A DNA stretch of 64,000 bases from the NCBI GenBank assembly GCA_028753945.1, contig JAPNXP010000012.1:1178001-1242000 (forward strand), read 5' to 3'. Origin of the DNA: Hexactinellida sp. DTS-2022 (lineage: Eukaryota > Porifera > Hexactinellida). Position 1 is the stretch's first letter, and each line of letters begins with the position of its first letter. The notes below the pieces were generated by a model. It was not told the DNA's origin and did not search any database. It saw only the letters and a list, made by a program, of their open reading frames with translations. Positions 16,315 through 45,685 of this stretch are shown here, piece after piece. Position numbers and translations under genes: made by a program.

Positions 16315-17867
16315 CGAGCCCTTCGGTCTCGGTCGCTTTGCGACAGATCGGTGCTACGCACCTCAAGTTAACGGCCGCTGAGCGGCCTTACTCCTCACAT
16401 TTTCTACCATGGAAATGGTAGATAGCTATCTAATTTTCATAAATTTGTTTACCTATTTGTGTAAACAACAACAACAACAACAAATACTCATATTAGAATT
16501 TTATAAATGCGAAATTCGTGTTCAGCACACTTGTTTACTTATAATACCTATTGAAAGTTAACTTCTAGGTTGATTTTGAATTTTCATTAAATTGTTTAGC
16601 TATTTTGAGTAAACAACAACAACAACAACAAATATTCATATTAGAAAATTTTATCGCTAAATTCGTGTTCAGCATACTTGTTTACCTATAATACCCGTTG
16701 AAAACTAACTTCTAGGTTGATTCTGAATTTTCATTAATTTGTTTACCTATTTTGTGTAAACAACAACAACAAATATTCATATTAGAAAATTTTAACCGCG
16801 AAAATCGTGTTCAGCATACTTGTTTACCTATAATACTCGTTGAAAGCTAACTTCTAGGTTGATTTTGAATTTTCATTAATTTGTTTACCTATTTTGTGTA
16901 ACAACAACAACAAATATTCATATTAGAAAATTTTAACCGCGAAAATCGTGTTCAGCATACTTGTTTACCTATAATACCCTTTGGAAGCTAACTTCTAGGT
17001 TGATTTTGAATTTTCATTAATTTGTTTACCTATTTTGTGTAAACAACAACAACAAATATTAATATGAGAAATTATAAACGCGAAATTCGTGTTCAGCATA
17101 ATTGTTTACCTTAATAACATTTGTTTACCTATTATAACATTTGAAAGTTAGTTTATATCCCAATATTAATTGCGGTTTCTAGTCCCCCATCACTTTAATA
17201 CAATCCGGACAAACACACACACAAACACACAAACACACAAACACACAAACACACAAACACACAACAATCGAGATTTAATAATACGAGCCCTTCGGTCTCG
17301 GTCGCTTTGCGACTGATCACTCTCTCACAAAAGTCGCTTCGCGACTTTTTTTCGTTCGTGTTAGGCACTACGCGATACAATTAACGGCCGCTTCGCGGCC
17401 TTTCCCTCCCCAAAGCAATCACATTAATAATGAGTTTTATTAGCTCAATAAATTTCAGTTACACGATAAGAAAGCTCGAATCAAAATAATACTAAAAGAA
17501 AACAGGCAATAGAATAGACAAATAATTGATTGGTTAAATGAATTTATTTTCAATCAATCAAATTGGAGCCTCAGAAAATATTTCTATCATGCACAATCTA
17601 TTTATACTAATTGATGAAATCTGCTAATCCATACTAACAAACCCTCGAATTTAATTGGCTAACATATTTTGTCACCTTCAAATGTGAATATTTCTCTTCA
17701 AAAACCAATAGATCGTTGTCGCAAGTACAAAATTACCCCTGTATACAAATTTTCAGCTTTCTGGGACTCGTAGTCTTTCCAATTAATTCTGGACAAACAA
17801 ACAAACAAACAAACAAACAAACAAACAAACAAACAGACAACAATTTCGCTTTTAATATATAGATAGA
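16315..17867 (-). mobile_element. H1 copy 2, split by an H2 insertion
   Basis: Comb, about five satellite units and an ACAC microsatellite lead to TTTAATA at 17283, where another element intervenes. The last bases of the H1 end (TAGA) lie after it. The loop of the GGCCGC hairpin is TGA here. The interruption gives a second natural empty-site comparison. Confidence 0.8.
17284..17863 (-). mobile_element. Helitron-like element H2, copy 1
   Basis: On the minus strand it starts TCTATATATTAAAAGCGAAATTG with a TTTG microsatellite and ends in a comb related to that of H1 (AAGTCGCTTCGCGACTT, GGCCGCTTCGCGGCC, then GTCGC/GCGAC and CGAG...CTCG). The internal sequence differs from H1 and lacks the 143-bp satellite. 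It sits inside the 5' terminus of H1 copy 2; removing it rejoins AATAATA with TAGATA, the H1 consensus, with no duplicated bases. Confidence 0.8.
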
Positions 17868-18170
17868 TATAACTAGATAGCAATATTATCTCTAGTTATA
17901 GTTCTCCGACCTGCACCCCGATCCTCTCCTCCCTGAAATAATAGTTAATATAATGTCTGATTGTTGTTTATGAATATTATGAATAGGATAAATATGTTAG
18001 TAATTATTGCCAAGTATAATATCCGCTAGCAACACCACATGACAATCTAACTAGCGAATAAGGTACATTATACTATTTATTGTTTCCTTCGACCCGATTA
18101 AGGGTTGATTTTGCTTACATAGTTTGGGGCGTCTAATGCCATCATACGTGTACCATTGTTCGCCTATCAG

Positions 18171-19424
18171 CAGATAACTAAAAAATGACCTTCACCAGTA
18201 GCAGAATATACTGAATAACCTAGAAGTGAGAACTCCACTATTTTGTTTTCGTGCTGGAGTTGAATTGTTCTGGAGATCTCGGCTTTATCCAGTTTAAGAT
18301 GGTTCAATTCCATTATAAACAATATTGGAACTTTGCTGAAGTTCTGGGCAAGAATTTCCATTTCCGATTCTTCTCGACATTTTCAACATTTCTGAATATT
18401 TTATTCAATTTGATAGTCAAGTGTATTCTGACTATTGTTAACAAAACTGTTGATGGTTGTAAGGTTCAAGGATTTCCGAGTATTAGAGCAACAATACCAA
18501 CACTGTATGTCAAGTTGGTAAGACCCATAACCCAAGAGTGAGTTAATGTGATGAACAAATGGTTGTTCGCTACCATAGAAATTAAAACAAGTGTCCTTTT
18601 CTTTATTTAGATTAAGTCTTTCTGCGATCCAGCACTTAGTTGAATTAAAATCTTTAGATTCTATTAGGTCCAAAAACTTGATTGTTTCTGCGTTTAAATG
18701 TATATCATTCTTAGCGATAGCATCCTTGACTTTAGTTATATTTATGCTGATCATGGTTATTAGATTGTCAACCGTACACGTGTTCTCAAGGGAAAATTTA
18801 TTCTTCCTTCCGCCCCAGTTGACGCAGAGAGTCTCTAGATTAGTATTTTCACAATTTATGGACCCCGTTTCTTTCCCTTGTAGTAATAAATAACTACGTG
18901 GTATAATACTTTTGTGACATACTCAATCGCTTTATGATCCCAGAATGTTGCTTTAGCTCGATCTTCATCTGTAAAGAGGTAAAAAGGAACATCTACTTCC
19001 TTTGCTTCTTTATACCACGAGATTAGCATTTCGCTAATATCCACATTGAGATGTGATAGGTGGTCAGGTAAAATTCTGGCATTAGGGAAGGTTAAACTTT
19101 TCCATTACGAAAATTCACGAAGCGGTAAGTTAATTTGCTCCATCAATATTGGTTGCATTTTTGAGAGACAACTTCCAGTAGAAAAGCTGTCTATAATTTC
19201 TTCTTTCATCCCAATTAAACTAATTAACACATTATCTGCTGAGAATATCGTAGTGTCCATAGCCTCCACTTCTTGCAAATCAATCTCAGGCATATTATAG
19301 TCATTAATTGGGCTTTCATCAGCACAGTTACGCTTAAGTGTTACCTCATTAGTGGTTAAAGTTTCTGTTGGAGAATTATCAGCAATCGTTGCAGTGTGCG
19401 TCTTCCTAATCTTAACCTAGAAAT
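18171..19424 (-). pseudogene. C-terminal part of the Ginger-like gene: linker and cysteine-protease domain
   Basis: Minus-strand coding continues from the integrase exon across an intron that holds an H1 element (acceptor near 19420). A linker rich in acidic and Thr residues leads to a frame change near 18900. A domain then begins WGGRKNKFSLENTCTVDNL (about 18815-18760) and ends GEGHFLVIC (about 18190-18170). The TCxxDNL start and terminal GxHF box resemble the Cys and His boxes of ubiquitin/SUMO-protease-like domains seen in transposon proteins. I infer a modifier protease, but the family is unconfirmed. The frame is continuous from 18830 to 18167. Confidence 0.55.
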
Positions 19425-19433
19425 AATAATATT

Positions 19434-19760
19434 TAAATTATTAAAACTCGATTGTTGTGTTTGTGTTTGTGTTTGTTTGTTTGTTTGTTTGTTTGTTTGT
19501 TTGTTTGTTTAAAACCGCATAGAGCAAACTTTCAAATGTTATAATAGATGTTATAATAAAACAAGTACTGATTTCGAAATTCTCATTTATAAATTTCTAA
19601 TATGAATAATAATAATTGTTGTTTACAAGAATAGGTTAATGAAAATTCAAAATCAACCTTGAAGTTAGCTTTCAACGGGTTTTTAGGAAAACAAGTTAAA
19701 ACTATGGAAAATGGTAGAAAAGCCCCAATACGTCGCAAAGCGACCGAGACCGAAGGGCTC
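19434..19760 (+). mobile_element. H1 copy 3 (short)
   Basis: Plus-strand orientation: CTCGATTGTTGTG microsatellite leader, roughly one satellite unit, a degraded comb and a terminal CGAGACCGAAGGGCTC. The GGCCGC and GGTGC hairpins are deleted. It lies in an intron of the Ginger-like gene. Confidence 0.75.
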
Positions 19761-19799
19761 ATATATGTACATATATGTATCTATAAATATCAAAGATAT

Positions 19800-20545
19800 T
19801 GAAGTTGAGCAGAAATAAAATAAACTTACTTGTGAATGCTTGAAGCGCAGATACTTTCTATCTTTCTCCACTACGATTGTATGCTGGTTCACTTTCTTGA
19901 TAGAAAATGGGCCTAGCCAGCGGGTTTCTAGTTGACATTTCTTTCTTCTGTTATATAATACGAGTACTTGATCTTCGATTTGAAATTTTGAGCGTGAAAT
20001 TGGGTCTAACCTTTTATCAAATTGCTTTTTCATTTTGATCTTAGATTTTAGGAGGTTTTTGCTAGCATCTTCATTTACGTTTTCTTTAATCTCTTTGAGT
20101 TTGTCAGTAAATTCCAATAGTTTTGCATCATCACCCCATTGGTCATCTGTTTCGTATTCCTCACAATGTATCACTTCTTTTTCAAATATATCGGCCACCT
20201 CAGTGGGTAAACGTGCATTTCTGCAACCATGCATGAGTTCGAAGGCTGAATGTCCCGTTGACTGAATACGGGGCCGTATGTTGAGTGAAAAGGTTTTAAG
20301 TTCTAAGTTTTCGACCCACCGATCTTGGTGTCCTGATAATGATTTATTAGGTAACTTTTAATCGCTTTGTGATAGGATCCAGTTAGTCCATTTGTTTGAG
20401 GGCTGTAAGGAGCTGTAAATATCAAATGACAATTGTATTCTTTTTGCAAATATTCCATAAGTTTGCTCCTAAATTCACCCCCGTTGTCACTTATTATTTG
20501 CACCCTTGGAACAATATATAGAAAATATATCTTGGAAACTTCATT
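19800..20545 (-). pseudogene. Ginger-like integrase, catalytic C-terminal half plus GPY/F domain
   Basis: Minus-strand frame carrying the second catalytic Asp (IISDNGGEF) and the PQTNG block of the retroviral-type integrase fold. A basic linker and a GPY/F module (ETRWLGPFSIKK) follow, then a splice donor near 19830. The Glu normally found after PQTNGL is Gly here (NGLTGSYHK). This single codon change would abolish strand transfer. The first half of the domain lies beyond element C at 26359-26791. GPY/F plus integrase fits Ginger DNA transposons or a Gypsy-type integrase. No reverse transcriptase or LTR is visible, so I favour Ginger. Confidence 0.7.
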
Positions 20546-20575
20546 GGTGGTTTCATATATTAAATTCGTCAATTC

Positions 20576-20627
20576 GCATGCGAAAGTTCGTTCATTCGCA
20601 TGCAAGAATGCGTTCATTCGCATGCGA
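20576..20627. repeat. Left subterminal palindrome array of element C
   Basis: Three copies of ATTCGCATGCGAA-type palindromes at 22-bp spacing; the middle copy is GCATGCAAG. The right end (26212-26330) has six copies. Confidence 0.85.
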
Positions 20628-20732
20628 GAATGAGTTCATTAATATGCCACCTATTATCTTGGATCGATTTTGCTTCGACATTATAATCTTTTCCGAAATG
20701 CTGGTATATTCATAGCTAGAAGTTTTATTTGA

Positions 20733-23700
20733 ATGGCAGAATTTAACACCACAACAAAAATATTAATTCCGTCACAAAAGAGGAGAAAGATTCTGTATGA
20801 TGATGCCACAACTACACGTATATCAATGGAGACCTTGGTGATCTCAGATACAGATGAATCAATCCTGGATACGAAAACTGTAGTTGATTACAATGATGGA
20901 GCATTAAGGCAATATGAAGTCCCGGTAGTTTATCAATACTCTCACCAGCTTCTTAAAGAATCCAACTTATGGTTTCTAGAAGATACTCCTATAACACTTC
21001 TTTCACAATATAAAATTATTAGCGGTGAGTGAAATCAGTTTATAAATTAAGTACATTGGAATATAACTTCAGTAACTTTCGATTGAGTAATTACTAATGG
21101 ATGACATTGAGTATCCGTCGCCATTACTAAATCACCATTACTAAATCGATCTTACACTCTATGTAAATATAAGTATCTTATTAAAATCGAACCTTAGGTC
21201 GAACTTCATTCAAAAATTCTTTTATTTATATCGACACTGCAAAGCGTTTATGTCAATCTTGTTCTTCAACAAATTGTGTTCACTACCAAGCCTATGAAAT
21301 GTGTTACTACAATTACTACGATTCTTTTTGCACAGTTAAAGCAAAAACACTCAATGAATTTAAATATTTTATCATCAATGAGAGTACCATTGTATTGCAC
21401 GATCTGGACGATATTCATATATTCAGGCTCATGGAGGATAAATGGTTTTGTGACTCATGTAGCAAGCTTTGTAAGCTTAACAAGCATATTGAAAAGATAT
21501 TTGTTGGAGGTGAACCCAATATAGTTAACAAATCACAGCCAAAAATCAAATTTGAGACAGTTTCATCTGCTTCTGTACCATTTTCTTTCAATATTAAGCA
21601 ATCTCAAATTTATGAAAAACAAATATCTGATGGACTAAACCTACCCTATGAACTATTCCCTGAAGAATCTAAATGCCCGAATGGTTATGACTATCTATCA
21701 TCCAACTTTTCTTTGGAAAATACAGGAATTATTTTGTATCTAGAGAATAAAGTGCAGGAGCTACCAGATCACAAATGTATTTCACTAAATTGAAACACTT
21801 TCTTATAAATGCGATTCACAATTATTAATTACTTCTTGCTCATTTTAGTATATAGATTACATTGCAACGGTCCTTTCCAATGTAAAACTGGATTTGATGG
21901 ACAATCTTTTCTTTTACTTAATTTGAATAACAGGCACTTTATTCACTATGGATTGTTATACGAGTACAGTGAATTGATGACTCATTCAAAGAATCCGTTG
22001 TTCAGTTATCTAAAGTCAGTTTTATTCAATATCTTCTTCTCCAATTGTTATGAGATTAGGCCACGCCATAATATGACGACTTAGAAACTCTATACGACCT
22101 CACCTCATAGGGATGTTATGTGTGTGGTTTCGTCCCATTGCAGGGACTCATCAGGAGGGCAACCTTCGACCACCATGCTTACTGCCCTACAGCCCTACTG
22201 TTATCTGTAGCGTACTGCCCATGCGGAAGGACACATTGGGCAGTACGCTACAGATAACAGTAGGGCTGTAGGGCAGTAAGCATGGTGGTCGAGGGTTGCC
22301 CTCCTGATAAGTCCCTGCAATGGGACGAAACCACACACATAACATCCCTATGAAGTGAGGTCGTATAGAGTTTCTAAGTCGTCATATTATGGCGTGGCCT
22401 AATCTCATAACAGAATCTCTAGATAAGTCAATGTAACTTATTGTTTCATGTAGGGCCAAAAACAGCAAACTGACGAGAATGGGCAGACGAGAACAGTACA
22501 AGTATCACATCTTCCAACACGCTTGGAATGCCTATCTCAGATTAGTAGATATTAATTATCAAAAATTTTTTTGTTCTCTGACCTGTAAAGAAACTCCTTC
22601 GATAATTATTTTAGATGGAATAGCAATGGGTACTACCAAAAGATTACCAATTCAACCAGATAACAGAGATTTCACTCAAAGTTATCCTATCATATCCTTG
22701 GAAGAACGAATCTACATAGCAGACTCACATGTTCGCCATACATTACGAAATTTTACTGAATCAGGGATTAGTAATTTGGAATTCACTAACATCTTGAGCT
22801 TTGTTCAACCTGAATTTGCTAGGTACCTTATCTACTGTTCTACATTAACCAATGCTCTGAGAGTCATTGATCAGAACTATCCATTAGTTCAAGAAGTAAT
22901 TCAAACATTGTCAAAATGCGAATCGATTTGTGCTATAGTTCGTATGACAACACTTTCTCCTGATGAACGTAAGTTAATCGCTGATTTAGCATTACAGCAA
23001 ACTGTAACTTTCTCCACTATTAAAGCATTATATCCAAGATTACATTTTATCAAGCTTCTTGCAAATTCACTGCCACCTCAACTGGATGTTCAAAATGACA
23101 AAATCACCTTACAAGAAAATGTTGCGGAAGTGTTATTTACAATCCTTAAACAAATCCAATTGCTTATTAGAAAACCAACCCGTGTTTTAAAGGAGGACAT
23201 CCCTTTGGGGAGAGAAGATTATTTCAATTGTTTTCCAGCCTTACATACGAACTCAAGGTACTTATATTGAAATAGTTTATACTTGGACTGTAAATTAAGT
23301 CATTCTTATTAAAAAATATTATTAATCGCTTTTAGGATCCCTCGATATGTAAATGAGCAGAACGAGAAACAAGAAAAATGTGCAAAGTTATATCCCAAGC
23401 ATCAAAGGTTCTCTCCTGGGCTTTTAGCTATGGTATGTCAACACAAGATATGTTATGGCTTTGAAATAATGTCTTCAAGAGAGTCAACTGTATTAGTCTT
23501 CAATATGTTACTTAGAAAATTCCATAAGATGCCTGAAGTCATTATCTACGACAATGCCTGCAATTTGCACACCACCTGTATTATGAGGTAATTCATCATT
23601 AAACATAAGATCGAAAATGAATTAGTAGACCCTCTTGTACCACTAACATACCTTTGGGCGGATGGGGAATATCCTATATGAGCCTAAGAACATTTAGAGG

Positions 23701-24237: not shown

Positions 24238-24304
24238 TAAATAAAATAAATATATATTTTATAAATTGTATTGTAAAGGTCTATAGCTGCCTAATATATA
24301 CTGT

Positions 24305-26042
24305 CTAAATATTGCAATTTGTGCAGTAGAAACTTCCATTGATAGAGTTGTTGGGTAAATTGTAACACTGATTGTGGAACCAAAAACCACATCTATCACA
24401 TTGAATTATATGTGTTCCTCCGTTTCCATCATAATTTACGTATGCAAATTCTGGGAGGTTGCAATCACAGATACAGTCAATTGTATATTTATACGGTTTG
24501 GGGACTTTTCCTGTCCTCTTGCCACGAGCTTTGAACGGAAACGGGGTAACTTTCTCAGTTTCGATACACTTGATGAAATGTTTCCTCATTTCATTTTGGT
24601 TCCAAGTAAGGTACACTGGATCATGCCCTGTAGCTATTGCTGTAGCAGCGGCGATAGCAAACATTCCACAGTCCTTTGCACCCGCCTGTCTATGAATCTT
24701 TGGAATGATGATCTCAAGTTGCATAGTTTGGTCGCCGTATAATAATGCCAATTGGGTATCCAGATTCATTGTAGTATTTCCGTTATACATAGAATCGTAT
24801 AAATATACTTCTCTACCATCATAAGAAGAACATACCCAGTGATTGTTTCTATTATGGTGTATTTGAACGCTCGGTATCTCACGTGCTACTTTCTTGAAAC
24901 TGAGATTCTAAAATAAAGAAATACATACATTTATTACAAAAACACCTTGTACCATGATAAGAAATGTTCAATCAAAAAGAAAGATAATGAGAAATTAATT
25001 ATTTAAATAAATATCTACATAATAACAACCTGAGAAAATATCGGATCTTGTAGCCCAGTAAGCGATGGAAAGCATTTTTTCAAAAGAACCTACAATAGCA
25101 TAAAAGTAAAGGAACGAAGAGGTGGGTCATTTAATGAATATTATTGCATACAATATTCTTGAACTTACACAAAATGCGTTGATGGTAACATCAGTTAACT
25201 CTTCATTATTAGAGAGTTCTTTTAGGCAGGTCTTCTTAGTTGCAGGTGAAATCTTTTGGTTACATGCTGGTATGCTTGAAAGTAAATTAAAGTGATTTGT
25301 AGATGGAGTATCCAAAAGACCACCAAAATAAGATGTATTGCTCAATTGTGAAAAGCTACTTTCTAATACTTTAACTCTTTTACAAAGGGGAGAAATATCT
25401 GATGCAGTAGAAGAAATGGGGAGTCGCTTCTTGGGTGTGCTAGTAGTTATATCTAATTTAGCTTTGTCCTTTGAAAGTGGCTTAACATCATAGTATCGTT
25501 GATAAGAAAGGACGATATTAATCAGTTTCTCCTTGGTTATTCGAAACTGTTTTGAATTTGATATACAAACAAATGGTATATCTCTCGGCCACCAAATTGG
25601 CTTTAAATTCTCATGTCCCCAAAAGTTCTTGAAGCGCCCTAGTTTAAAAAATTTAGTCCACATAAAGATATAGGAATTGAAAACAAAAAATAGGAAGTAG
25701 TAATCACAAGTACATACCAACTGATTGATGAGTCAACCAAAATACAATCCTTCTCAGTGTTTGCATGGTATAATCTGCACAATTTCTCATCAATAAATCT
25801 TGCATATATTCTTCACTATATGGCGCGGTAGTTTGTTTATGTCTTGAGGAATGTTTAGACAAACTATTCCACATAGCATCTTTCTGAGTAGAAATCAAAT
25901 AACTGAAGTTTTCTGGGCCTAAAACAGTTAGCGATCCCTTCCATGTCATCACAATCCAAACCACTTCACCAGTATGTTTATGAAAACTGTCACAAGTCTT
26001 TATCAAAGTTTCGCGCGCATTTGACTTGCAAATGCGCCGCAT
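24305..26042 (-). CDS. Ulp1-like protease with PHD finger, four exons, intact (element C)
   Basis: Exons on the minus strand: 26042-25718, 25638-25169, 25089-25030, 24907-24305; phases agree and give 485 codons plus stop. I chose the start at MRRICKSNAR because the element B homologue begins at the matching MSRMNRRNAR; an in-frame Met exists at 26096. Exons 1-2 encode a conserved module (CDSFHKHTGE, FWGHENLKPIWWP) of unknown function and a basic Ser-rich linker. Exon 4 holds the Ulp1/C48 fold: His in HHNRNNHW, Asp in YLYDSM, Gln-Cys in QAGAKDCGMFA. A PHD finger then supplies CDCNLPE, CDRCGFWFHNQC and CTNC. The gene converges on the transposase. Its role in transposition is unknown; SUMO or ubiquitin-like cleavage near chromatin is an inference. 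Confidence 0.8.
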
Positions 26043-26211
26043 CGTTTTCGGAAAAAGAAATATGTTCAGATTATTGTTGAAAAATCGAGAATACATATTT
26101 TATAAAACTGGTTATTTATATATTTGTTAACTTGTTATCGCATAGGATGATTTTCACATTCGAATAATCTCATTCTTGCTTGGCAATAAAGTCATTCCCA
26201 CATTCGATTAT

Positions 26212-26330
26212 TCTCGCAGGCAGATGACGTATTCTCGCATGCGAATGACGTAATCTCGCATACGAATGACGTAATCTCGCATGCGAATGAACGCATTCTT
26301 GCATGCGAATGAACGAACTTTCGCATGCGA
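26212..26330. repeat. Right subterminal palindrome array of element C
   Basis: Six tandem sites with core GCATGCGAATG, mostly at 20-22 bp spacing; the outer three match the left end exactly, and the inner three (TCTCGCATGCGAATGACGTA type) are extra. The end of the integrase open frame runs into this array. Confidence 0.85.
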
Positions 26331-26358
26331 ATTGACGAATTTAATAGCTCGGTGGTTT

Positions 26359-26791
26359 TGGTCTTAAGTGGTCGTGTTTCTACCCATTTTGTGAAGTGGT
26401 CAACCATAGTTAGAATATATTGATACCCTTCAGATTGAATTAAGGGACCAGTCAGATCCATTCCTACTCGATACCAAGCTCGAGCTATCACAGGCATAGG
26501 TTGGAGTGCTTCATTGGGTCTCTTTAACGAGTTGGAATTTCTTTGACAATCTTCGCAGTTTTTCACGTACTCACGTATTGTCTTTACACAACTGGGCCAA
26601 TAATACCGGCTTTTAGCTAGATTATATGTGTACTCCGCACATTGATGTGAATTGTGTATTTCTGACATTATTTTGGGAAGTTCGCATTCCTTAATTACCA
26701 ATGGCTGATATTCTCCATTATTGAAATAAAGTTTATCACATTTGACAACGTACTTTATCGATCCTCCATAGCTGACGCTTCCTGTTCTCAT
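26359..26791 (-). pseudogene. Ginger-like integrase, N-terminal half
   Basis: Minus-strand frame beginning MRTGSVSYGG at 26791. It carries an integrase zinc-binding region (HNSHQ...YYWPSC...NCEDCQ) and the first catalytic Asp (GMDLTGPL), followed by MVDHFTKWVE. Coding is cut at the 8-bp duplication of element C and continues on the far side at 20545. No LTR or polymerase was recognised upstream of 26791. Confidence 0.75.
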
Positions 26792-26912
26792 CCGTAATAT
26801 CAGAATACGAATTACTTATTAAATAGGTTTTTATGTTTTGGTATAGTAATTCGTCCATTATTAATCAATGAAATTTAAATAATTGATAAATATTGAGTTA
26901 TTAAAAACTACT

Positions 26913-27008
26913 ATTAGCATGCGAATAAGTTACTATTCGCATGCGAATAAGTTACTATTCGCATGCGAATAAGTTAGTATTTGCATGCGAATAAGCTATT
27001 ATTCGCAT
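26913..27008. repeat. Subterminal palindrome array of element B (left)
   Basis: Five copies of TATTCGCATGCGAATAAG at exact 22-bp spacing. The other end (33115-33170) has three copies with the same period. Confidence 0.9.
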
Positions 27009-27395
27009 GCGACTAGTAATTTTTAATAAGTTCTGATAAAGTCTCTAACAGGACCTTAGTCTCCTCAAATAATAATTCATTATTAATGCGATAGACCTGT
27101 GGCTAAATATGTTAATTAAATTTATTCAGTTTTATAGAAGCCAATATAGGTGTAATAAATATACAAGCTTCGTCAGAGAATTGTCTTTTAGATAATTTTT
27201 GTAGTATGATTTGTTCACATCCACTCAACTTCTGTTACATTCTACACCAATTTTATAAATTTTATAATCTAATAGGCGTGTGTGTACGTTGCAGTTTAAT
27301 TAATTCATTAATCAAAATCTACTTATTATTACGGATTCAACATAGAATTTATCTATTTCCCATTGATCTAATTATTTAACAATTGACTATTTGAG

Positions 27396-29324
27396 ATGTC
27401 AAGAATGAATAGAAGAAATGCCCGAAATATTCTCTTGAAAGTATGTGATCAATTTCACAAAGTCACTGGTGAAACTGTGGGAATCACTTATACATGGGCA
27501 GGAAGTCTCGATATTTTCGGAACATCTAACTTCCGCAACATCATTGAAAGCAAAAAAGACGAAATTTGGAGGAGCTTAACATTCCAAGGCAAAGAAGTTC
27601 CCTGTATCAAACCACATATGGATAGAGAAATGTTTGACCAATTACAGGGAAATATCGAACAATTGAGTGTAGTGAATTTGAGAAAAGTTGTTTCATGGGC
27701 CACTCAAAAATCAACAGGTTTGTAAATTATTAATTGTAGAATATATTTTCAAATGCAGAATTATAAATTCTAACCATCCATTTTAGGTCGCGCCAGAAGT
27801 TTTTGGGGTGATCCACATTTAAGGCCCTCCTGGTGGCCAGAGAAGACTCCTTTCGAATGTATTTCGAGAAACACTAAAAATAATAAAATTACCAAAGAGG
27901 TATTAATCAACATATTAAAATGTTATAAAGAGAGCATTGGGTTGAATGATAGTAAAGATAATTTTTCAGCAAGCACTCCTTTAAAACGCATCAATGCAGA
28001 TTCTAATATTCCTCCATTTGCTAAGAGGTTTAAATTAGATGACAACATTTCTGATACTAGTTCATTATTTGGAGGATTACTAAATACTCCGGAAAAGGGT
28101 ACAATTGAAACGCCCCAATTTATTCAGAAACATGAAATCTCCATTAAACATTCACCTTATACTCCTAGCCTTTGGACTTCTCAAAAAAGGAAATCAATTA
28201 CTCAAACAACGATAAATAAATGCCTAAAAGAACTGTCAAATCCAACAACTTTAGTAACCGATATCACCATACATACATACTGCGTAAGTCAATATTTAAT
28301 AATAGTGCATTAGAGATATTCCGGTTATATAGTATGTAGTTTGGTCAAATATTGTTTATTTATATGACAAGTTTATGTATTCCGAGGATGACAATTATTA
28401 TCCTTACAATATACATTAGAATACAATATAAACACGATTCACACGAATTTCGGATAAGGCGAACAAATTTTGACCGTCCCCTGATGTTCTTATTGTCGAG
28501 GTTCTACTGTACGTATGTAGCATTTCCTTTGCTAAATATCTTATTAATTGTGTATCACTCTACTTATTTTATTTAACTTATTCTCCCATAGAAAATTCTT
28601 CAGAATAGTTATCCATCAGTGAAAGGATTGCAGGATCCAATAATGTCCCAGGTATATTATATACTACTCTTAAATATATTAAGAGCTCTCATTTATACTT
28701 GTACTATTTTTAGAAATTGAAATTTAGAAATCTAAAGGAGAAAGATTTAGCCATCCAAGTCCATCATGATGGAAATATTCATTGGGTTTGTTCTAGCTAC
28801 GATAATAAGCTGGAAAGGGTATTTCTGTATGATTCTTTGAATAAAAAGGAAACAACAATGGAACTCGACACTCAACTAGCTCAGATATATGGAACACCTT
28901 CAATGCAGTTGGATGTTACAGTGCCTAGAATTCAAACTCAGTCAGGAGGTTATGATTGTGGACTTTTTGCATTGTCTTCAGCCACCTGCATTGCAGCTGG
29001 AATTGACCCAATGTCTCAAACATGGGATAAAAAAAAATGAGAGCTCATTGTATAAACTGCATAAAGAGTGGGATTGCATCTCCTTTCCCTGCCAGTACGC
29101 GCGGGTTACGTACAGGTAAGCTTCCACAATCCCGCCAGTATACAGTTGATCTGATCTGTGACTGTAACCTACCCGAGTTTGCATATAATATTACACCAAA
29201 AGGAAATGCCATTACACTTGTGATACAATGCGAAAGGTGCACCATGTGGTTTCATAACCATTGTTATGGCCTTTCAGATACATCAGTAGATGGAGTCTTT
29301 CTATGCAGATCTTGTTCTAAATGA
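27396..29324 (+). CDS. Ulp1-like protease with PHD finger, four exons, one frameshift (element B)
   Basis: Exons 27396-27717, 27787-28283, 28592-28651 and 28714-29324 match the element C gene in order, phase and, for exon 3, exact length (60 bases). Catalytic residues are present: HHDGNIHW, LYDSL, QSGGYDCGLFA. The PHD finger (CDCNLPE...CERCTMWFHNHC...CRSC) follows. A run of nine A residues near 29030 puts the protease and PHD parts in different frames, and the protease frame stops at 29040; this is a one-base loss relative to the paralogues or an assembly error. Without it the gene would be complete. A product ending at 29040 would keep the catalytic Cys but lose the PHD finger. Confidence 0.75.
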
Positions 29325-29558
29325 AGTCAATTACAATATTAATAAATACAGCATTTAGCACTTACGATGGTTTTAAGACTACTCTGAATCTAGATTATTG
29401 ATAGACATTACGTATGTATAGTCTTAGTATATACGTATATCAAATAATAACAATACATTATGCTTCATTAATTTATCTATACTGATATTAAGAAATAATC
29501 TTTACTAATTGACATGATCTGTAACTATTATCATTCTTTTGATTATACAATGGTTAAA
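29325..29558. other. Spacer between convergent genes of element B
   Basis: AT-rich; no gene seen. The corresponding spacer in element C is much shorter (67 bp). Confidence 0.5.
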
Positions 29559-29979: not shown

Positions 29980-31213
29980 CGAGCCCTTCGGTCTCGGTCG
30001 CTTTGCAACAGATCGGTGCTACGCACCTCAAGTTAACGGCCGCTGTGCGGCCTTACTCTTCACACTTTTACCATGGAAAATGTTAGAAAGGGACGTTATA
30101 ATTTTGAATTTTCATTAATTTGTTTACCTATTTGTGTAAACAACAACAACAACAAATACTCATATTATAATTTTATAAATGCGAAATTCGTGTTCAGCAC
30201 ACTTGTTTACTTATAATACCCGTTGAGAGCGAACTTCTTGCTTGATTTTGAATTTAATTAATTTGTTTACCTATTTTGTGTCAGCAACAACAACAAATAT
30301 TCATATTATAAATTTATAAATGCGAAATTCGTGTTCAGCATACTTGTTTACCTATAATACCCGTTGAGAGCAAACTTCTTGCTTGATTTTAATTTTCATT
30401 AATTTGTTTACCTATTTGTGTCAGCAACAACAACAAATATTCATATTATAAATTTATAAATGCGAAATTCGTGTTCAGCATACTTGTTTACCTATAATAC
30501 CCGTTGAGAGCAAACTTCTTGCTTGATTTTAATTTTCATTAATTTGTTTACCTATTTGTGTCAACAACAACAACAAATATTCATATTATAAAATTTTAAA
30601 CGCGAAATTCGTGTTCGGCATACTTGTTTACCTATAATACCCGTTGAAAGCTAACTTCTAGGTCGTTTTTGAATTTTCAATAATTAGTTTACCTATTTTG
30701 TGTCAACAACAACAACAAATATTAATATGAGAAATTTATAAACGCGAAATTCGTGTTCAGCATACTTGTTTACCTATAAAATCCGTTGAAAGCTAACTTC
30801 TAGGTTAATTCTGAATTTCCATTAATTTGTTTACCTATTTTGTGTAAACAACAACAACAAATATTCATATTAGAAAATTATAACCGCGAAAATCGTGTTC
30901 AGCATACTTGTTTACCTATAATACCCGTTGAAAGCTAACTTCTAGGTTGATTTTGAATTTTAATTAATTTGTTTACCTATTTTGTGTAAACAACAACAAC
31001 AAATATTCATATTAGAAAATTATAACCGCGAAAATCGTGTTCAGCATACTTGTTTACCTATTATAACATTTGAAAGTTAGTTTATATCCCAAATTCCCAA
31101 TATTAATTGCGGTTTCTATTCCCCATCACTTTAATACAATCCGGACAAACAAACACACACACACACACACACACACAAACAAACACACAACAATCGAGAT
31201 TTAATAATATAGA
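29980..31213 (-). mobile_element. H1 copy 4, inside element B
   Basis: Comb (GGCCGCTGTGCGGCC; second hairpin degraded to GTCGC TTT GCAAC), about seven satellite units, long AC microsatellite and terminus AATCGAGATTTAATAATATAGA. Flanked by A on the left and T on the right. The first four units differ in type (TTGAGAGC, CTTGCTTGATT) from the later ones (GTTGAAAGC, CTAGGTTGATT), showing higher-order structure within the array. Confidence 0.8.
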
Positions 31214-31586: not shown

Positions 31587-31752
31587 GAGAATACTTATCC
31601 ACCAATCATCGGCGTTTGTATTTAAAAATCTCGCTACTTTCTACCGATGATGTTTTTTATAAACATAAAAAAACAATTGATGGAATGTAGCGAGCTTTTT
31701 AATGCAAACGCCGATGATCAGTGCTACCGATGATCGGTGGATAAGTATTCTC
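31587..31752. mobile_element. Small fold-back MITE
   Basis: GAGAATACTTATCCACC and ATCATCGGCGTTTG at the left are mirrored by CAAACGCCGATGAT and GGTGGATAAGTATTCTC at the right. An inner CTCGCTAC/GTAGCGAG pair follows. Arms are about 45-50 bp. It lies next to the third exon of the broken KDZ gene. Confidence 0.75.
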
Positions 31753-31759
31753 ATACATT

Positions 31760-33045
31760 TAATACCTTAAGAAGCTATAAAGAGGATTTCTTGAAACAGT
31801 CATTAGTTCACTATACTCAAATAGGAGACCATAGTGAACCAAATATTTATTATTTATATTCATCAGGAGACTACTGTGGCCTTGATAATCAATTCTACAT
31901 TGACAGCAACCGTTGCAAGTAGAACTGTATACTACAAGATTAGATTCATTAACAGCATAAAATGACACTGTAATTTAATAATATACGCAAATAACTATAC
32001 CATTGTGTAGCTTGCACTCCCGAACTTCGTTTTCTAGATAAACAATTATCCCTGTTTGTTCTAATTTCACATTTGATGCGAGGTATTCATACCCATAAGG
32101 ACACCTTTGGAGAAGATTTTCGGGGTATAAATTGTTAGGAAGATATAAACCGGATAATAGTTGTTCTTTATAAATCTTTGAAAGAGATGGTGGCAGAGTA
32201 AACGGGATCGGAGTACTCGAAATAGATTTTGATTCAGTTTTCGGATTAAAGTTATTAGCTACCGGGGGAGAAATATGTTCATGGAGGCTATTTATTATTG
32301 ATTTAACTTTGCAAACTTTCTCACAAGTTTCACAGTACCATTTATTCTCTTGGAAGCAGTATACATGACTTCCTGTGCCAATATTGTCAATCAATATTAT
32401 ATGAGCAGTGTCTACCATATAGCATGCTATAGTTTTTGTGAAATAAGCATCTATAGTTTCTAATGTTATCAGACATTTACACTGTTCATAGGCTATGCCG
32501 TGAATACAATCAGATGATTGACATGTTTTGCAAAATTGTTTCTCTAAATCCAGTATTATGAATCTTTTGGACAGTAAAAGTTTCCCTATTTGGACAATCC
32601 AAAAGTAAATATACATAGTCGTAGTAATTGGTTTATTAATGTTAAATTTTATCTGAAACTAACCTTGATTCCATTTATAATCTTCAAAGATGACCGCGTT
32701 TGATTGAGATAGATTAAAAAATAAGGAATCCTTTAAGAGGAGGCTTATATATTGATCAAGGATTGATATTTCAACGCTAGCTAAACCATGTTCATCTTGG
32801 CAGTCATCTTCAAAGGTCGTCTGTAATAATTCTATTCTTGCTAATTCTGTAGAAATGTCAGTTGAAGTCGGATAGTATAACGAATTTAATTTAGTCAAAG
32901 ATTGGCCTTGCGAAGAATTTGGAGTTGGTAAATGTGATATCTGTATCGAACCAACATCAATTGATTGTAATTGGGAAATGTTTTCCTCTTGAACGAGTTT
33001 ACGTTTTTTATGGGTTGGATGTACTGTTGAGAATTGTTGAGACAT
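31760..33045 (-). pseudogene. KDZ transposase N-terminal exons 1-3 (element B)
   Basis: Exon 1 (33045-32664) starts MSQQFSTVHPTHKKRK and ends at donor AAG/GTTAGT. Exon 2 (about 32600-31999) has CKTCQSSDCIHGIAYEQC, CETCEKVCK and CPYGYEYL. Exon 3 (about 31925-31765) has CQCRIDYQGHSSLL...YSELMTVSRNPLYSFL. All three are open and match elements A and C. The gene then runs into the MITE and unrelated sequence, so the catalytic middle is lost. Confidence 0.8.
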
Positions 33046-33114
33046 TTCTTGAAAGATATTTACGAAACTAATATTGCAAGATGATAATTAATAAGGAAAT
33101 AGCAACGCTTATTC

Positions 33115-33170
33115 GCATGCAAATAGTAACTAATTCGCATGCGAATAGTAAGTTATTCGCATGCGAATAG
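33115..33170. repeat. Subterminal palindrome array of element B (right)
   Basis: Three copies of ATTCGCATGCGAATAGTAA at exact 22-bp spacing, adjoining the terminus CGATTTTAATATATG. Confidence 0.9.
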
Positions 33171-33330
33171 TCGATTTTAATATATGAAATATTATACAAA
33201 TATGAAATAACTAGCTATCTATATATTATTCAATAATCTTGGTTGAAATATGAAATAGTGTTGATGAGAAAACAGTATAACATGATTAGTTGAGATATAG
33301 CAATATGGCTTCATATGTTCTATTATTAGA

Positions 33331-33631
33331 CCGGACAGTTTTTTTTTATCCGGACAATTCTGAAGTAAAATATAATATATTTCGAAAAATCTGTCCGCCC
33401 GGACAGTATTTAGCCTCGGACAGATTTTTCGAAAACAAATCCACTCGGACCAAATATTTCTGATATATTTGGTCCGGCCGGACCGAAAAATAGCCCGGAC
33501 CAAAAACATCTGAAATATTTAGTCCGGCCGGGCATTTTGCAAACCCGGACCAAAAATGTCTGAAATATTCGGTCCGGGAAATTTTATGTCCGGCCGGACC
33601 AAATTTACCCCGGACCGAATATTTCGTGACA
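33331..33631. mobile_element. Partial copy of the TGTCACGAAATATTC element
   Basis: From about 33440 the sequence is nearly identical to the right arm at 15320-15523, ending CGAATATTTCGTGACA. The left 100 bp carries related but different CCGGACAG/CTGTCCG repeats. No matching left terminus is visible. Confidence 0.65.
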
Positions 33632-36420
33632 GGTACTATACTATTTAATTCAAGAAATACTGGTCTGATAATAGACAGTCAAAGTATAAGTTATATCTTG
33701 AACTATGGAAAAAATTATTGATAACTGAAGACAGTATTAACATTTAAAGTGCACAATTGGAACATTTTCTTATGAAAATTATTCCAGTCATTATTTTATA
33801 AATAGTTGACTTGGAGTATAGTAACTGATTTTATATTCAAAAGTTATAGAGTGGTCCGGTCTAACTAGTAACTAGTGATCAGGCTAAGGTATGATCTATC
33901 AATAAAATGGTTAGGCAATGATTAATCCGCTTAATGGGGTAAACATTTCACAGGATTTTTAGGACGGAATTACAGTTTAACTCAAAGTATTTTCGTTATA
34001 ATATTTCTCCGCTTAATTGGGTCAAACTATCCTAGAACACAACTCACTCTATTAAGTGGAGTCAACAATATTTACTAATAAACAACCACATAATTGCACA
34101 ATTGATACCTGAGCTAACACAGTTCGGATAGGATCAAATTATGGAGTCCGTTTAACAAAGTAGAAACTGATATCTTTGTTACTGCTTATTTGTTGCAGCT
34201 GTGACAACTGTGCAAATTGCAAAAATTAATAATTATAGTCCAGATGCATTTATTGATTATGTTAATTATCTTTTTGTATTGTTAGTACCATTCACCACAT
34301 GAATGAGTTAAGTAGTTTTGCATGTGGATATATTTTCAACTGTCAGCAAAATAAACATCTTATTCATTAATTTATGGGAATATAGAGCTCCATTCCCATT
34401 ATTGTTAATTTGTGACTGAAATATTAGTTGGAACTTGGAACCTACATATCCTATTAGGCGGACTTATCGTATGATTTTCTATTCTATATTATACTTTCAT
34501 GAGAATTCTTGTCACAATAACCTTCTATCAAGGAATTGAAAAGTCTCTGGAAATAAAATATAGTAGAGATCCACATGTGGTACTGACAATGAATAATTAC
34601 AAACATTTAACCATACAACTCACAGCAGATATTTTGCATATAGGAACATGCTCCATTTCTGAATTTCGTACTTATCTTAAAATGATTGACATGTTTATTC
34701 ATACTAATTTTGTGACCTGAAGCTAATGAAAATATGAAACTAGCAGTTAATAAGTTGGGAATAATACTTATAACCCTTGCAACCCAAATGAAGTTGAGGA
34801 TTTATACAAAAGATGGACATTCATTCTCTTCAGACAAATTTATAAAATCATAATTTTTAATCTAAAAATATAATAATAACATGTTGTCAAGATACTGTTG
34901 ACTATTTTAGTCTCCACTGAATGAACACACATTAATGCAGTAAGAAGATATGAAGAAAGTGGTTATTGTGCGTTATGTGCGAATATCAAAAAAGGTTAAA
35001 AACATTGTATAGACTATAGAGTATATATATAGAGATATCACATATCTGACAGAATGGATCAGATAAAACCATTAACTTCTATTTTGCCAAAAGAGATTCC
35101 TGGGATACGCTAACCTAAGTTGAGAATGCTGAAATTTATTCATATTTCACAGTAGAGAACTTTAAAATTATGAATTTTCAGCTCTTTAGTGATATTTTCC
35201 AATTTACATTATTGGAAATGACTATTTTATGATTAAAAAAACATATGCTAAGCCCAATATATAAATAGGTAATATAAATACATGAACTATAAAAATAAGT
35301 ACATTACTTCACACGAGCCTATAGCTAAAAATGACAGTATACACAAGCACATGTTCTTGAAATAGAAAATAACTCCGGGTCGACGGTAAAATTGAGAGGT
35401 ACGGGGATGATTAATTAACAAGTGATGTATTTATTTGTACCTACATAGACGTTTATATAATGACTATCTAGTAGATAGCATAGTGCATGCATCTGAAAAA
35501 TTGATAAATAAATAGTTCTTATATCCTGCTTACAAACCTCAAATTCAATTATTCATCAAACTATATTGCAATAATCTACAAATCCAGAGAGTATGCAATT
35601 TTGTTTTTCTGAAGTACAAAACATTGTCCTTAGATTGTAAGGTTTTTAAGAAAGTCTGTATATCTACGGACTTCGAAGACTTTTACGGATAACGTCCCTT
35701 TACGGTAAAATGTACCGAAGCATTTTGTATGGTTACTCTAACACTATTGGCAGGAGAGGAGACCTTGGTGTAACTCAACACTGCAGCGGCCGCGGCCGAC
35801 CCGAATCGTGGTGTAACTCCAAAAAATCTTGGTGCAAATTTACACCAAGATCGGCCTTAAAAAAACCCTGCTTTAGAGGCACTACATTTGGTGGTTGGGT
35901 AACTAGTAGTGCCTCCAAAGGGAAATACTTTCTGCACAGGCTGCAATTTTTGATTTCTTCGCCATGTCATGAACGCCTCATGGTGTTTAGACTCATTTAA
36001 CAAGTTACGGGACAAAGGAACGATTGTTGAATTAGAAGTTTATTTCTATCTTGAACCATATTGAGAATAATGACATTCATTCATTATGTATTGATAATAA
36101 ATTATATTATTAGTAATTATTTTAGCAATGTTATCCACGGTGAGTTGAGTAAAGTCAACAAATTTCTTTATTTTATTGTATTTGCTTTAATTCATTGTAT
36201 ATTATTAGTACAAATTAAAATTAAATAGAAGCCAGCTGGAATTTACAAGTTAAATCAATATATTTATCGAAAGTTGAAACAATAGAGTATATTTAACAAG
36301 TTATATCAATATATTTATTACAAAGAGCTAGTGTTTGTGAAATCAAGTACTAGTTATCTATGAACATTTTGATAGTATATTTTAATTATATTAGATCTAT
36401 TTATAGAACTTCAGTTTTAA
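33632..36420. other. No intact gene; repeat fragments
   Basis: Mostly AT-rich unique-looking sequence. At 35760-35850 there is a GC-rich patch (CGGCCGCGGCCG). At 35870-35960 there is a diverged half of MITE X, and at about 36060-36330 an inverted fragment of the 738-2160 repeat unit. Short open frames at 34499 and 35710 have no recognisable features. Confidence 0.5.
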
Positions 36421-36423
36421 GAA

Positions 36424-37005
36424 GGTGGCTTGTGACCAATTGAGTGTACAAATTCATCACAATAAAAATAATCATTGGGTATGCTCCAGTTACGACGGCA
36501 CAAATAAGATCCGTTTATATGATTCGATGTTTCTAGGAGTGACAACTATGAACCTGGATACCCAGCTTGCACTTTGTATGCAGATAAGTCTATGCAACTT
36601 GAAGTCGAAGTTCCTAAGATACAACAACAGGTTGGTGGAACTGATTTCGGGATTTTTGCTGCTGCAGTTGTTACCGCCATAGCAACTGGATCTGATCCTA
36701 TTTATCTGACTTGGATACAGACTAAAATGAGAGAACATTTCATTGATGTATTGAAACTGAAAACATTACTCTTTTTCCTTCTGTAACTCGAGGAAAACGA
36801 ACTGGCAAGGTTCCAATTCCTCATCGATACACGATAGATTGTATATGTGACTGCAATCTACCTGAGTTTGCTTATGCTGTTTCAATTGAAGATGGTAGGA
36901 GCACATACACTATACAGTGTGATGCCTGTAACTTTTGGACAGATGCTATAATTTGCCCAATACTTCTATTTCTGGCTGTTTTTAATGTAAAATCTGTAGT
37001 ATCTA
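36424..37005 (+). pseudogene. Ulp1-PHD protease fragment (element D)
   Basis: Matches exon 4 of the element B/C protease: HHNKNNHWVCSSYDG and LYDSM are recognisable. A short deletion shifts frame after LALCM. The catalytic Cys box reads QVGGTDFGIFA, with Phe in place of Cys. The PHD region (CDCNLPEFAYA...CDACNFW) is truncated and frameshifted. Clearly dead. Confidence 0.75.
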
Positions 37006-37059
37006 AATTACATTAAATAGATGTGTAGACATAATTTAATCAATCATGAATGTGTTTAT

Positions 37060-37700
37060 CCAAAGAAATAACGTGCGTTGAAAAACACATTCTCGACCCT
37101 CATATAAGCTACTTGCGTAGCGATACGCCTTAACAGTGAGAAAATTTGCTCACATATCTGTGAGTTAACTCTTCTCATATTTTCAGTGTCCCAGGTTTCC
37201 ATCGAAAATATTGGGTTGCATTGGTGGTTCCTGCAATGGAATCTGTCTATTAAGAAGGTAGTGTTGCGGAAGAGAAATAGATCCCTAGGAAATGGAATAT
37301 TTTAATTTAATGTCAAGTACGTATATGATTTTAGAGTTTCTCTCATAATTTCTAATCATTGTAATAAGTCAAAGGTTATAATACTGAATAATTGTTAATT
37401 GCCTCATTATGCAAGTTGTATGCAAATTGTAGGCGTTGTTATATACGTGTATAATCACCTCTGGCATCCTCTTAAACTTCCTAAGCAGCATATTGAAAAT
37501 GAGAATGGTTGACTCTCTTGAGGACAAAATCTCAAAGCCATAGCATTTTTGGTGCTGACATGCCATTCTAGTAGTAGCCCAGGAGAGAATTTATGGTGCT
37601 TGGGATATAACTTTGTACAGTTTTTGTGGGTTTCATTCTGTTCACTGAGATATTGAGGAATCCTATGTTGAGGACACTTATTAATAACCTTACATCAGTT
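37060..37700 (-). pseudogene. KDZ transposase C-terminal exons (element D)
   Basis: Minus strand: last exon (about 37286-37060; DLFLFRNTTFLIDRFHC...ICEQIFSLLRRI) and penultimate exon (about 37670-37400; MACQHQKCYGFEILSSRES...YNNAYNLHTTC). In the catalytic motif YDNACNLH the Asp is Asn and the Cys is Tyr, so the site is lost. It is convergent with the protease fragment, as in elements B and C. Confidence 0.8.
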
Positions 37701-37741
37701 TTAGGATAAACTATGAAATTATTCAAGAAAATAAAAATATA

Positions 37742-39378
37742 TCTGTATATTAAAAGCGGAATTGTTGTTGATGTGTGTGTGTGTGTGTGTTTGCCCAGAA
37801 TTAATAGGAAAGACTACGAGTCCTAGAAAGCTGAAAATTGGCATACAGGGGTAATTTTGTACTACGACAACGATCTATTGGTTTTTGAACAAAATAACGG
37901 GATTATGACGTCATAAAGGCACTTATTTGGGAATAACTCTTTCAGTTTTTCTTCGATTCGCCCACAATTTTAGATGATAACACAACATACAATGAGACAC
38001 ACCATGGCCTACTTAATATACGGCTATATATGTCGCCGAGAAGGCCATAAAACAAAGAGGCCAGTTTCTAATTTACAAAATGGAGAATTGATCTATATTC
38101 GAATAATTAGCAATGATAGAGCTGAAAAGTGTATTATAACTATATAGGAATATGGTATCCAGGTATACATAGCACCCTCCAGAATTGTGATATGTCATCA
38201 TCTGATGACGTTGTGGTTATTTTGGTTGCGAATTATCTTGTTTTTCTTGCATACTTTTAACATAGTTAAACGCGTTATAAATGTTCAAAATTGGAACATG
38301 GTTATACCCAGAAGTAGTAGAATATAATATATCGAAATTATAAATGGAATGTTGACACATTCCTCGGTTGCCATGGAAAATGTATATTTCCTAAAATGTG
38401 CCATAACTCAAAAACTATGAATGTTATGTAAACTAGACTGGTAGACTGGTACTGATCTGTCCGGAATAGGTAACTTCCTATTCATCGATAATACATTTTA
38501 TATGCCTAACTTCAATAATCTTTGAGATAGTGATTCATTACCTGATAATGAATTAAGTGTTAATTATCTCATTATCTCAAAAATATGTATACCTGGATAC
38601 CATATTCCTATATAGTTATAATACACTTTTCAGCTCTATCATTGCTAATTATTCGAATAAATATCAATTCTCCATTTTGTAAATTAGAAACTGGCCTCTT
38701 TGTTTTATGGCCTTCTCGGCGACATATATAGCCGTATATTAAGTAGGCCATGGACACACGTATACCGATTTATGGGAATGTGACGTCACGTACGAACTAA
38801 TTTGGATACAGCTCTTACATTTTTGATCCAATCGTCAAACAATTTTGTCACATTATAAAACAGAATGTGTTGCAATATCTCTAGAAATTTTTTTATTTTT
38901 CGCATTTCATCTGAGCCAGGCAATAACAAAAATGTAACCTCCAATTGCTGCGTCATTGCACATACTGAAGTTTGATGATTTAATCTTCACCTACATTATT
39001 TCCGAAATTGCATACTTGATTAATCCAGTTTGGCTTCCATCAGTTTATTTCTATTCGTGATGTATTTAGCCCACGTCAATCACATAAGCATACATAATAT
39101 TACTATCAAAGTAATTCAACTACATATTTACAAACAATTTTCCTATGTAAATCCTGGGTTAGTAAATAACATGAATGAATGATTAATTAATTAGTTGACA
39201 TACTTGGGTCCCAAATAGCAGCATAGAGTACGTGTAATTTACAAGTCACAGGTTTAATCTATTTAATATGAGTGATAGTTGAGGAGTGTAAGGCCGCAAA
39301 GCGGCCGTTAATTAATTGTGTTGCGGTGTGTAACACGAATGAACAAAAGTCGCGAAGCGACCGAGACCGAAGGGCTCG
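37742..39378 (+). mobile_element. Helitron-like element H2, copy 2, with a nested MITE
   Basis: Starts TCTGTATATTAAAAGCGG with a TG microsatellite and an AGAATTAATAGGAAAGACTACG block shared with H2 copy 1. It ends in a comb (GGCCGCAAAGCGGCC, GTGTTGCGGTGTGTAACAC, GTCGCGAAGCGAC, CGAGACCGAAGGGCTCG), flanked by A and T. It has a 750-bp fold-back element inside and separates the KDZ exons of element D. Confidence 0.75.
38003..38752. mobile_element. Long-arm TIR MITE nested in H2
   Basis: Terminal inverted repeats of about 175 bp start CATGGCCTACTTAATATACGG and end with the exact inverse. They enclose about 400 bp of non-coding sequence. GACACAC occurs on both sides (37996-38002, 38753-38759), a probable 7-8 bp target duplication. 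No transposase is encoded. Confidence 0.85.
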
Positions 39379-39507
39379 TAGTTACTAAATACTTGAAGTT
39401 TTGATTCAATGCTGGAAAACAGTTGAAGTGATCTTCATTACTGGAAATATTCATTTCAGTCAATTTTCGGGTTGGTTTTCTTATTAAGTTTTGAATCTGT
39501 TTAAGAA

Positions 39508-40237
39508 TCTATATTATTAAATCTCGATTGTTGTTTGTTTGTTTGTTTGTTTGTGTGTGTGTTTGTTTGTCCGGATTGTATTAAAGTGACGGGGGAATAG
39601 AAACCGCATTTATATATGAGATATAAACTAACTTCCAAATGTTATAATGGGTAAACAAATGTTATAATAGGTAAACAAGTATGTTTAACCCGAATTTCGC
39701 ATTTATATATTTGTAATACAGTATGAATATTTGTTGTTGTTGATACACAATAGGTAAACAAATTAATGAAAATTCAAAATCAACCTAGAAGTTTGCTTTC
39801 AACAGGTATTATAGGTAAACAAGTATGCTGAACACGAATTTCGCGTTTATAAATTTGTAATACGTATGAATATTTGTTGTTGTTGTTGACGCAAATATGT
39901 AAACAAATTAATGAAAATTCAAAATCAACCTAGAAGTTAGCTTTCAACGGGTATTATAGGTAAACAAGTATGCTGGATACGAATTTCGCATTCATAAATT
40001 TCAAATATGAATATTTGTCGTTGTTGTTTACAGAAAATAGGTATACATAAATAAATTAAGGAAAATTCAAAATCAACCTAGAAGGTAGCTTTCAACGCTT
40101 ATTATAAGTATATAACTATGACAAATATTACTAACTATGTAATCAATTGTTTAGTGAGGAGTAAGGCCGCGTAGCGGCCGTTAACTTGAGGTGCGTAGCA
40201 CCGATCTGTCGCAAAGCGACCGAGACCGAAGGGCTCG
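39508..40237 (+). mobile_element. H1 copy 5, plus orientation
   Basis: Starts TCTATATTATTAAATCTCG with a TTTG microsatellite. About three satellite units follow, then the comb (GGCCGCGTAGCGGCC, GGTGCGTAGCACC, GTCGCAAAGCGAC, CGAGACCGAAGGGCTCG), ending A/T-flanked at 40237. It lies between KDZ exon fragments of element D, directly against a piece of exon 4. Confidence 0.85.

Positions 40238-45648: not shown

Positions 45649-45685
<37 letters not shown>

Follow-up and report, generated by a model that had tools for sequence, protein, structure and literature searches.

Hairpin combs at the 3' ends of Helitrons in a glass sponge genome and their possible role in stopping strand transfer

Helraiser/Helibat1, a system of the Helitron1 type, carries a single palindrome of 19 bp, placed 11 bases before its CTAG end, and the available text of its description presents this 3' hairpin as a transposition terminator: without it 8.8% of wild-type efficiency is left, its deletion leads to more bypass of the 3' end, and the loop mattered while the stem could be exchanged (PMC4778049). 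The definition of Helitron1 in the accessible part of a second study includes a short hairpin 10-12 bases from the 3' end (PMC5148889). That accessible part also describes the Fusarium elements FoHeli1 and FoHeli2, of the Helitron2 type, with one hairpin per end plus inverted repeats, an ATTTT terminus, GAA between the paired arms of the 5' hairpins (TCAGCC GAA GGCTGAC and AGTCC GAA GGACTT) and nested self-insertions; FoHeli3-5 appear there without a 3' hairpin, and the same text describes no comb for the FoHeli elements (PMC5148889). Reports of Helitrons with several 3' hairpins were not found in the accessible portions of the open-licence literature.

The elements described here, from the sponge Hexactinellida sp. 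DTS-2022, resemble Helraiser in having an alignable Rep-PIF1 protein, a 5' TC and a palindrome near the 3' end. They differ from it in carrying four to five hairpins that reach the very end, in a terminal tetrad CTCG that lies within the last stem, and in a C-terminal OTU domain added to the protein of their autonomous lineage A1. GAA loops and nested self-insertions are likenesses to FoHeli1 and FoHeli2, while the number of hairpins and the terminus are not. Helentrons, which encode Rep, helicase and endonuclease, are present in the same genome (a 1,701-aa ORF with Exo_endo_phos), and no comb was found in the 9 kb read of one copy.

The window, the whole 64-kb stretch of DNA, holds 12 combs or comb remnants, and the observation of a comb of several small DNA hairpins at a Helitron 3' end, made in an earlier note on this DNA, is confirmed. 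A non-autonomous H1 Helitron at 16315..17283 (- strand), with internal repeats of about 142 bases and its 3' end at 16315, terminates in a comb at 16315..16398 (-). This comb has four hairpins between 16315 and 16387 (hairpin 1 at 16315-16331, hairpin 2 at 16332-16344, hairpin 3 at 16350-16362 and hairpin 4 at 16373-16387). In element orientation, from 5' TC to 3' CTCG, it reads GGCCGC-NNA-GCGGCC, spacer, GGTGC-GTA-GCACC, spacer, GTCGC-AAA-GCGAC, CGAGACCGAAGGGCTCG and the element end. The first four 5' bases of the element (17864-17867) are severed by a nested non-autonomous H2 Helitron at 17284..17863 (-), which sits at A^T in the H1 5' end (TCTA^TATT) with an ATCTA flank before TCTATATATTAAAAGCG and with TATTATTAAATCTCG after CTCG. 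Its comb, at 17284..17400 (-), consists of a GGCCGC hairpin (hairpin 4, 17386-17400), an inserted AAAAGTCGC hairpin (17329-17349), a GTCGC hairpin (hairpin 2, 17301-17313) and a terminal CGAG/CTCG hairpin (hairpin 1, 17284-17300).

Further non-autonomous H1 Helitrons lie at 29980..31213 (-, comb 29980-30063), at 39508..40237 (+, comb 40154-40237) and, beyond the range of the earlier note, at 2744..3973 (-) and 44783..45708 (-), the last of these adjoined by a short H1 copy at 45713..45956 (-). An H2-type element at 37742..39378 (+) has a short comb with one GTCGC hairpin (39288-39378). A decayed H1 comb at 8727..8810 (+) is one for which no 5' end was found, and an H1-derived copy at 19427..19761 (+), with an approximate 5' limit, retains hairpins 1-2 only. 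The same bases (TTTAATAATAAA...) follow both the H1 comb at 58836..58919 (-) and a decayed H1 comb at 62214..62295 (-), which therefore look like a local duplication and not like two insertions.

Other features were also observed in the window. A Type III hammerhead ribozyme at 22122-22175 (-) scores above the Rfam gathering cut-off. Arrays of a unit of about 22 bases with the palindrome ATTCGCATGCGAAT, or nearly so, are found at 20563-20647, 26209-26346, 26904-27028 and 33102-33182. ORFs or stretches at 24305-24790 (-), 10345-11493 (+) and 28740-29325 (+) look alike by eye; the ORF at 24305 contains a PHD finger, and the part preceding it may resemble a Ulp1-type protease. An integrase zinc-binding domain at 26192-26791 (-) probably belongs to a retrotransposon.

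All the loops that the earlier note had listed for the GGCCGC stem were located in the window: TAT at 2802, TGA at 16373, TTC at 17386, TGT at 30038 and 44841, AAA at 39292, GTA at 40165 and TCT at 58894, to which ATA at 8738 can be added. AAA, GTA and ATA belong to copies on the other strand, and on the element strand all nine loops read NNA. The GTCGC hairpins carry TTT or TTC loops, as had been stated, the latter seen on the other strand as GAA. H1, H2 and H3 have the last two hairpins in common, namely GTCGC-NAA-GCGAC and CGAGACCGAAGGGCTCG with the final tetrad in its stem. Hairpin 3 is GGTGC-GTA-GCACC in H1 versus GGCGT-GAA-GCGCC in H3; in the common H2 sequence the GGTGC hairpin is not formed, and DNA folding gives no stable hairpin 3. 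The proposal that the same ordered hairpins recur in H1 and H2 thus holds for a recurring comb, but not for the GGTGC hairpin. The inserted H2 hairpin takes the form CAAAAGTCGC..GCGACTTTTG or CAAAGGTCGC..GCGACCTTTG and is perfectly paired in 29 of 35 copies.

The identification of the H1 and H2 elements as Helitrons, with the comb as their 3' terminus, is supported by their ends, their A^T target and the autonomous partners of H1 and H3, and the earlier note is borne out on this point. A 26-base terminal pattern matched 1,769 times in the 112-Mb genome, and its reversed control did not match at all. The elements end A|TCT...GGGCTCG|T and are inserted at A^T: CTCG has T as its next base in 79 of 81 unique ends, and A precedes the 5' TC in 11/11 H2-type and 15/15 H1-type ends, collected by patterns in which the TC was obligatory. 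Elements of the Helitron1 type insert between A and T. The 3' end does not follow this type, in that H1, H2 and H3 end in CTCG, not CTRR, and no short hairpin stands 10-12 bases from the terminus; hairpin 2 stops 17 bases short of the end and hairpin 1 includes it.

By pattern, 16 of 81 3' flanks open as a related element does at its 5' end. Among nested copies with both ends in view, TCTA was present on the other side in five of six, as insertion at A^T predicts, the exception being L054. Together these two results indicate that insertion into kin at this 5' spot is common. Repeated insertion behind the first four 5' bases of a relative was observed at 17284-17863 in the window and at L004, L007, L044 and L068, again with L054 as the exception. 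Head-to-tail concatemers were rejected as the cause of most adjacent copies, which have CTCG|TATT or CTCG|TATA junctions without the TCTA that a concatemer keeps; TCTA on the other side of all six nested copies but L054 is further evidence against them.

A search of the genome with PF14214 gave at least 151 matches (150 of 292 candidates scored). Thirty Rep loci were compared, comprising lineages A1 (n=11), A2 (n=12) and A3 (n=6) and one outlier, with Rep DNA identities of 69-74% among the three lineages and 70% between A1 and A2. The autonomous elements of all three are taken to be Helraiser-like and of the Rep-PIF1-OTU kind. Pfam identified Rep, PIF1, 2B and OTU domains in the A1 protein, the one scanned, and no endonuclease match such as a Helentron would have. 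Its alignment with Helraiser (7lcc) scores 1,057 bits over residues 37-1429 and includes the HxH and the YLYKY region; Y727 and Y731 are the catalytic tyrosines of Helraiser. The autonomous partner thus has the Rep (HUH, two Tyr) and PIF1-like helicase of the Helitron1 type. A Mytilus protein with 51% identity was among the best 120 of 4,322 protein relatives.

An autonomous Rep-helicase partner with the same comb, for which the earlier note had suggested a search, was found for H1 in A1 and for H3 in A2; none was identified for H2 among the Rep loci. The H1 comb is at the expected place in five of six A1 loci examined, one of them with only the last 28 bases of the comb inside the stretch read, and the sixth has no comb within the 1.6 kb read. 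Two autonomous A1 copies are 99.87% identical across 745 bases, identity stopping 4 bases beyond the comb. At least seven of the 12 A2 loci, three others of which lie outside the region covered by the H3 matches listed, carry an H3 comb on the same strand, 2.5-5.8 kb downstream. L014 and L019, in the region with a complete list of exact matches, have no H3 comb, and the H3 combs beside the A2 genes L107 and L109 have no hairpin 4.

A3 has a different end, TACAAGC...GCTTGTA around two GC hairpins, GGGCC-GCA-GGCCC and CGCGC-GTA-GCGCG. It lies 5.6-5.8 kb downstream of Rep in three of three loci, two of which were read and the third found by a 26-base pattern with 406 occurrences in the genome, against 0 for its control; an H-type comb was present in neither of the two loci read. 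A decayed end of this A3-lineage type is found in the window at 16083..16150 (+), with TACAAGC...GCTTGTA around GGGCC-GCA-GGCCC. An H2 comb located downstream of the A3 gene L025, at a distance of 9.9 kb, was rejected as the end of that element, whose A3-type end pattern is found 5.6 kb downstream at C1:3607646, and we read this comb as a separate copy.

We consider it probable, with some reserve, that Helitron1-like rolling-circle transposons, moved in trans by autonomous Rep-PIF1-OTU relatives of the same genome, have the comb as their 3' terminus, and that it folds to stop transfer; by analogy, ending strand transfer is its most likely function. Transposition would peel the strand 5'-TC...CTCG-3' off as a single strand, and its 3' region would fold into a row of short GC hairpins with mostly R-N-A loops. 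This row could make the helicase stall and expose the CTCG|T junction to the HUH nuclease. GTCGC-NAA-GCGAC and CGAGACCGAAGGGCTCG would be the core needed for this, while the inserted H2 hairpin, like hairpins 3 and 4, may be an extra stop gained, altered or lost by lineages. Compared with 200 shuffles, DNA folding gave z -3.86 for H1, z -4.71 for H2 and z -4.91 for the short H2 comb at 39288, with no shuffle as good in any of these cases. The H3 comb folds little better than shuffles (z -1.75, 14 as good). This poor folding, the lack of hairpin 3 in the common H2 sequence and the lack of hairpin 4 at L107 and L109 argue against a strict requirement for structure.

On the element strand most loops read R-N-A, and GNA is frequent. 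A stands at the third loop position in 94/99, 98/100, 96/100 and 95/100 copies among the matches listed, and of the 14 consensus loops from H1, H2, H3 and A3, 11 are GNA (GAA, GTA or GCA) by manual count, many of them sharing common descent. In DNA, triloops of the GNA type have particularly high stability, and such stability is special to DNA. In the available text of one study, d(GCGAAGC) is cited as one of the extraordinarily stable mini-hairpins (PMC10527192). The loops could mark single-stranded DNA on the transferred strand. A more elaborate form of the terminator would be a modular one of single-stranded DNA, made of several mini-hairpins of unusual stability with R-N-A loops, mostly GNA, on the transferred strand, in which each lineage tunes its hairpin number, this number sets the rate of 3' read-through and gene capture, and to which the A3 end has converged. 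This is a tentative possibility, and it is made less probable by the opposite strand of H1 folding nearly as well (-19.5 vs -21.2 kcal/mol; z -3.66).

Another explanation is that the comb is conserved as sequence, with the transposase or another protein reading palindromic duplex motifs (GGCCGC, GTCGC) and pairing as a by-product. Hairpin 2 and most of hairpin 1 are near-invariant in H1 and H3, which leaves pairing there without variation and would suit such a protein site, as would a neutral-looking decay of stems in copies. Non-consensus letters were counted in the first 100 of 1,528, 1,420, 2,269 and 1,270 matches (reversed controls 86, 23, 1 and 45), with 99 rows for the list of 1,420, from which the unrelated match C1:8660874 was left out; the lists favour well-kept copies because they required intact anchors. 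H1 stem sites deviate at 4.2% in hairpin 4, 4.5% in hairpin 3 and 3.1% in hairpin 2, and the respective loop sites at 20/51/5%, 11/1/2% and 0/2/4%; hairpin 3 of H3 has 9.4% in the stem and 11/11/5% in the loop. The decay of copies is roughly even, the rate per site in H1 stems being 3-5% as in the majority of loop sites, with the exception of two hairpin 4 loop sites, where several common loop types probably reflect different source copies. Stems decaying as fast as loops, which the earlier note had named as evidence against its reading, are thus seen within H1 for hairpins 2 and 3 and partly for hairpin 4. Its view that stems persist and loops vary holds in part: the four stem differences aligned between families keep pairing, but individual copies decay and strong loop variation within H1 is confined to the GGCCGC hairpin. 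The loop-dependence of Helraiser is the opposite of a stem-only reading.

What counts against a duplex motif is that hairpin 3 and the inserted H2 hairpin show double changes by which the stem sequence differs while its bases still pair. From 72 combs (partials filtered earlier), 18 H2-type and 13 letter-identical ones were left out and the other 41, of H1 and H3, were aligned, with some ends lengthened by a few bases. In this alignment 94.7% of cells pair, against 93.7% in shuffles, and partners slid by 1-3 columns are 25-49% paired. Both sides are changed in 14 cells versus 6.0 in shuffles (0/500 as high), although related rows can exceed shuffles even without structure, and 11 of the 14 fall in one hairpin 3 pair, a T-A to C-G change tracing to one family difference. 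Of the five measures, two do not stand out from shuffles: the count of doubly changed pairs (4 vs 2.8; 125/500) and that of pair types (21 vs 19.5; 101/500). RNAalifold, run on the same rows with RNA energies, missed hairpins 3 and 4 and chose other pairs. One pair of the inserted H2 hairpin is A-T in 24/33 and G-C in 9/33 copies without intermediates, and it splits the H2 subfamilies; with this one, double changes between families or subfamilies amount to only two.

Within families, 84 of 199 changed stem pairs still pair and 115 are broken. Pairing is preserved in each of four differences that separate families or subfamilies (hairpin 4 pair 2, hairpin 3 pairs 3 and 5, inserted hairpin pair 5), two of these aligned differences being double changes; this contrast (Fisher p 0.034) is suggestive only, since the four were hand-picked and omit the unfolded H2 hairpin 3 and the hairpin 4 loss in L107 and L109. 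The asymmetry of the loops, with A as third base on the element strand, is also unneeded by a symmetric site, but common descent could explain it as well. We regard recognition of duplex motifs as unlikely and selection for folding as plausible. The suggestion that pairing is under selection is strengthened by double changes that keep pairs; it is weakened by their concentration mostly in one pair, by the decay of copies and by hairpin 3 or 4 being missing from some combs.

Compensatory pairs and flipped loops could also arise by mutation and not selection, if template switching in a palindrome copies one arm onto the other, a mechanism that the accessible text of one study describes for RNA genes (PMC8794818). 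Loop flips do occur, TTC for GAA in 2/35 inserted H2 hairpins and TAT for ATA in 1/99 hairpin 4 copies, and the A-T to G-C change without intermediates among 33 copies is of the kind expected. However, hairpin 3 has intermediates, with T-G pairs in 10/100 H3 copies among the matches listed, and template switching leaves unexplained both the recurrence of R-N-A loops on one strand in the unrelated A3 end (GCA, GTA) and a comb kept between A1 and A2 at 70% Rep DNA identity. As an account of the paired stems it seems improbable to us. A known RNA family was ruled out, as an Rfam scan of the combs gave none.

The reading that we favour, a comb that terminates strand transfer, touches on a question which is not settled, namely how Helitrons recognise their 3' end or miss it and carry off neighbouring DNA. 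The usual Helitron tail is one hairpin, and a row of hairpins shared with gene-carrying relatives makes a good test case for where copying stops. With natural ends that differ in hairpin number and alignable autonomous genes in one genome, the effects of hairpin number, stem and loop are directly testable.
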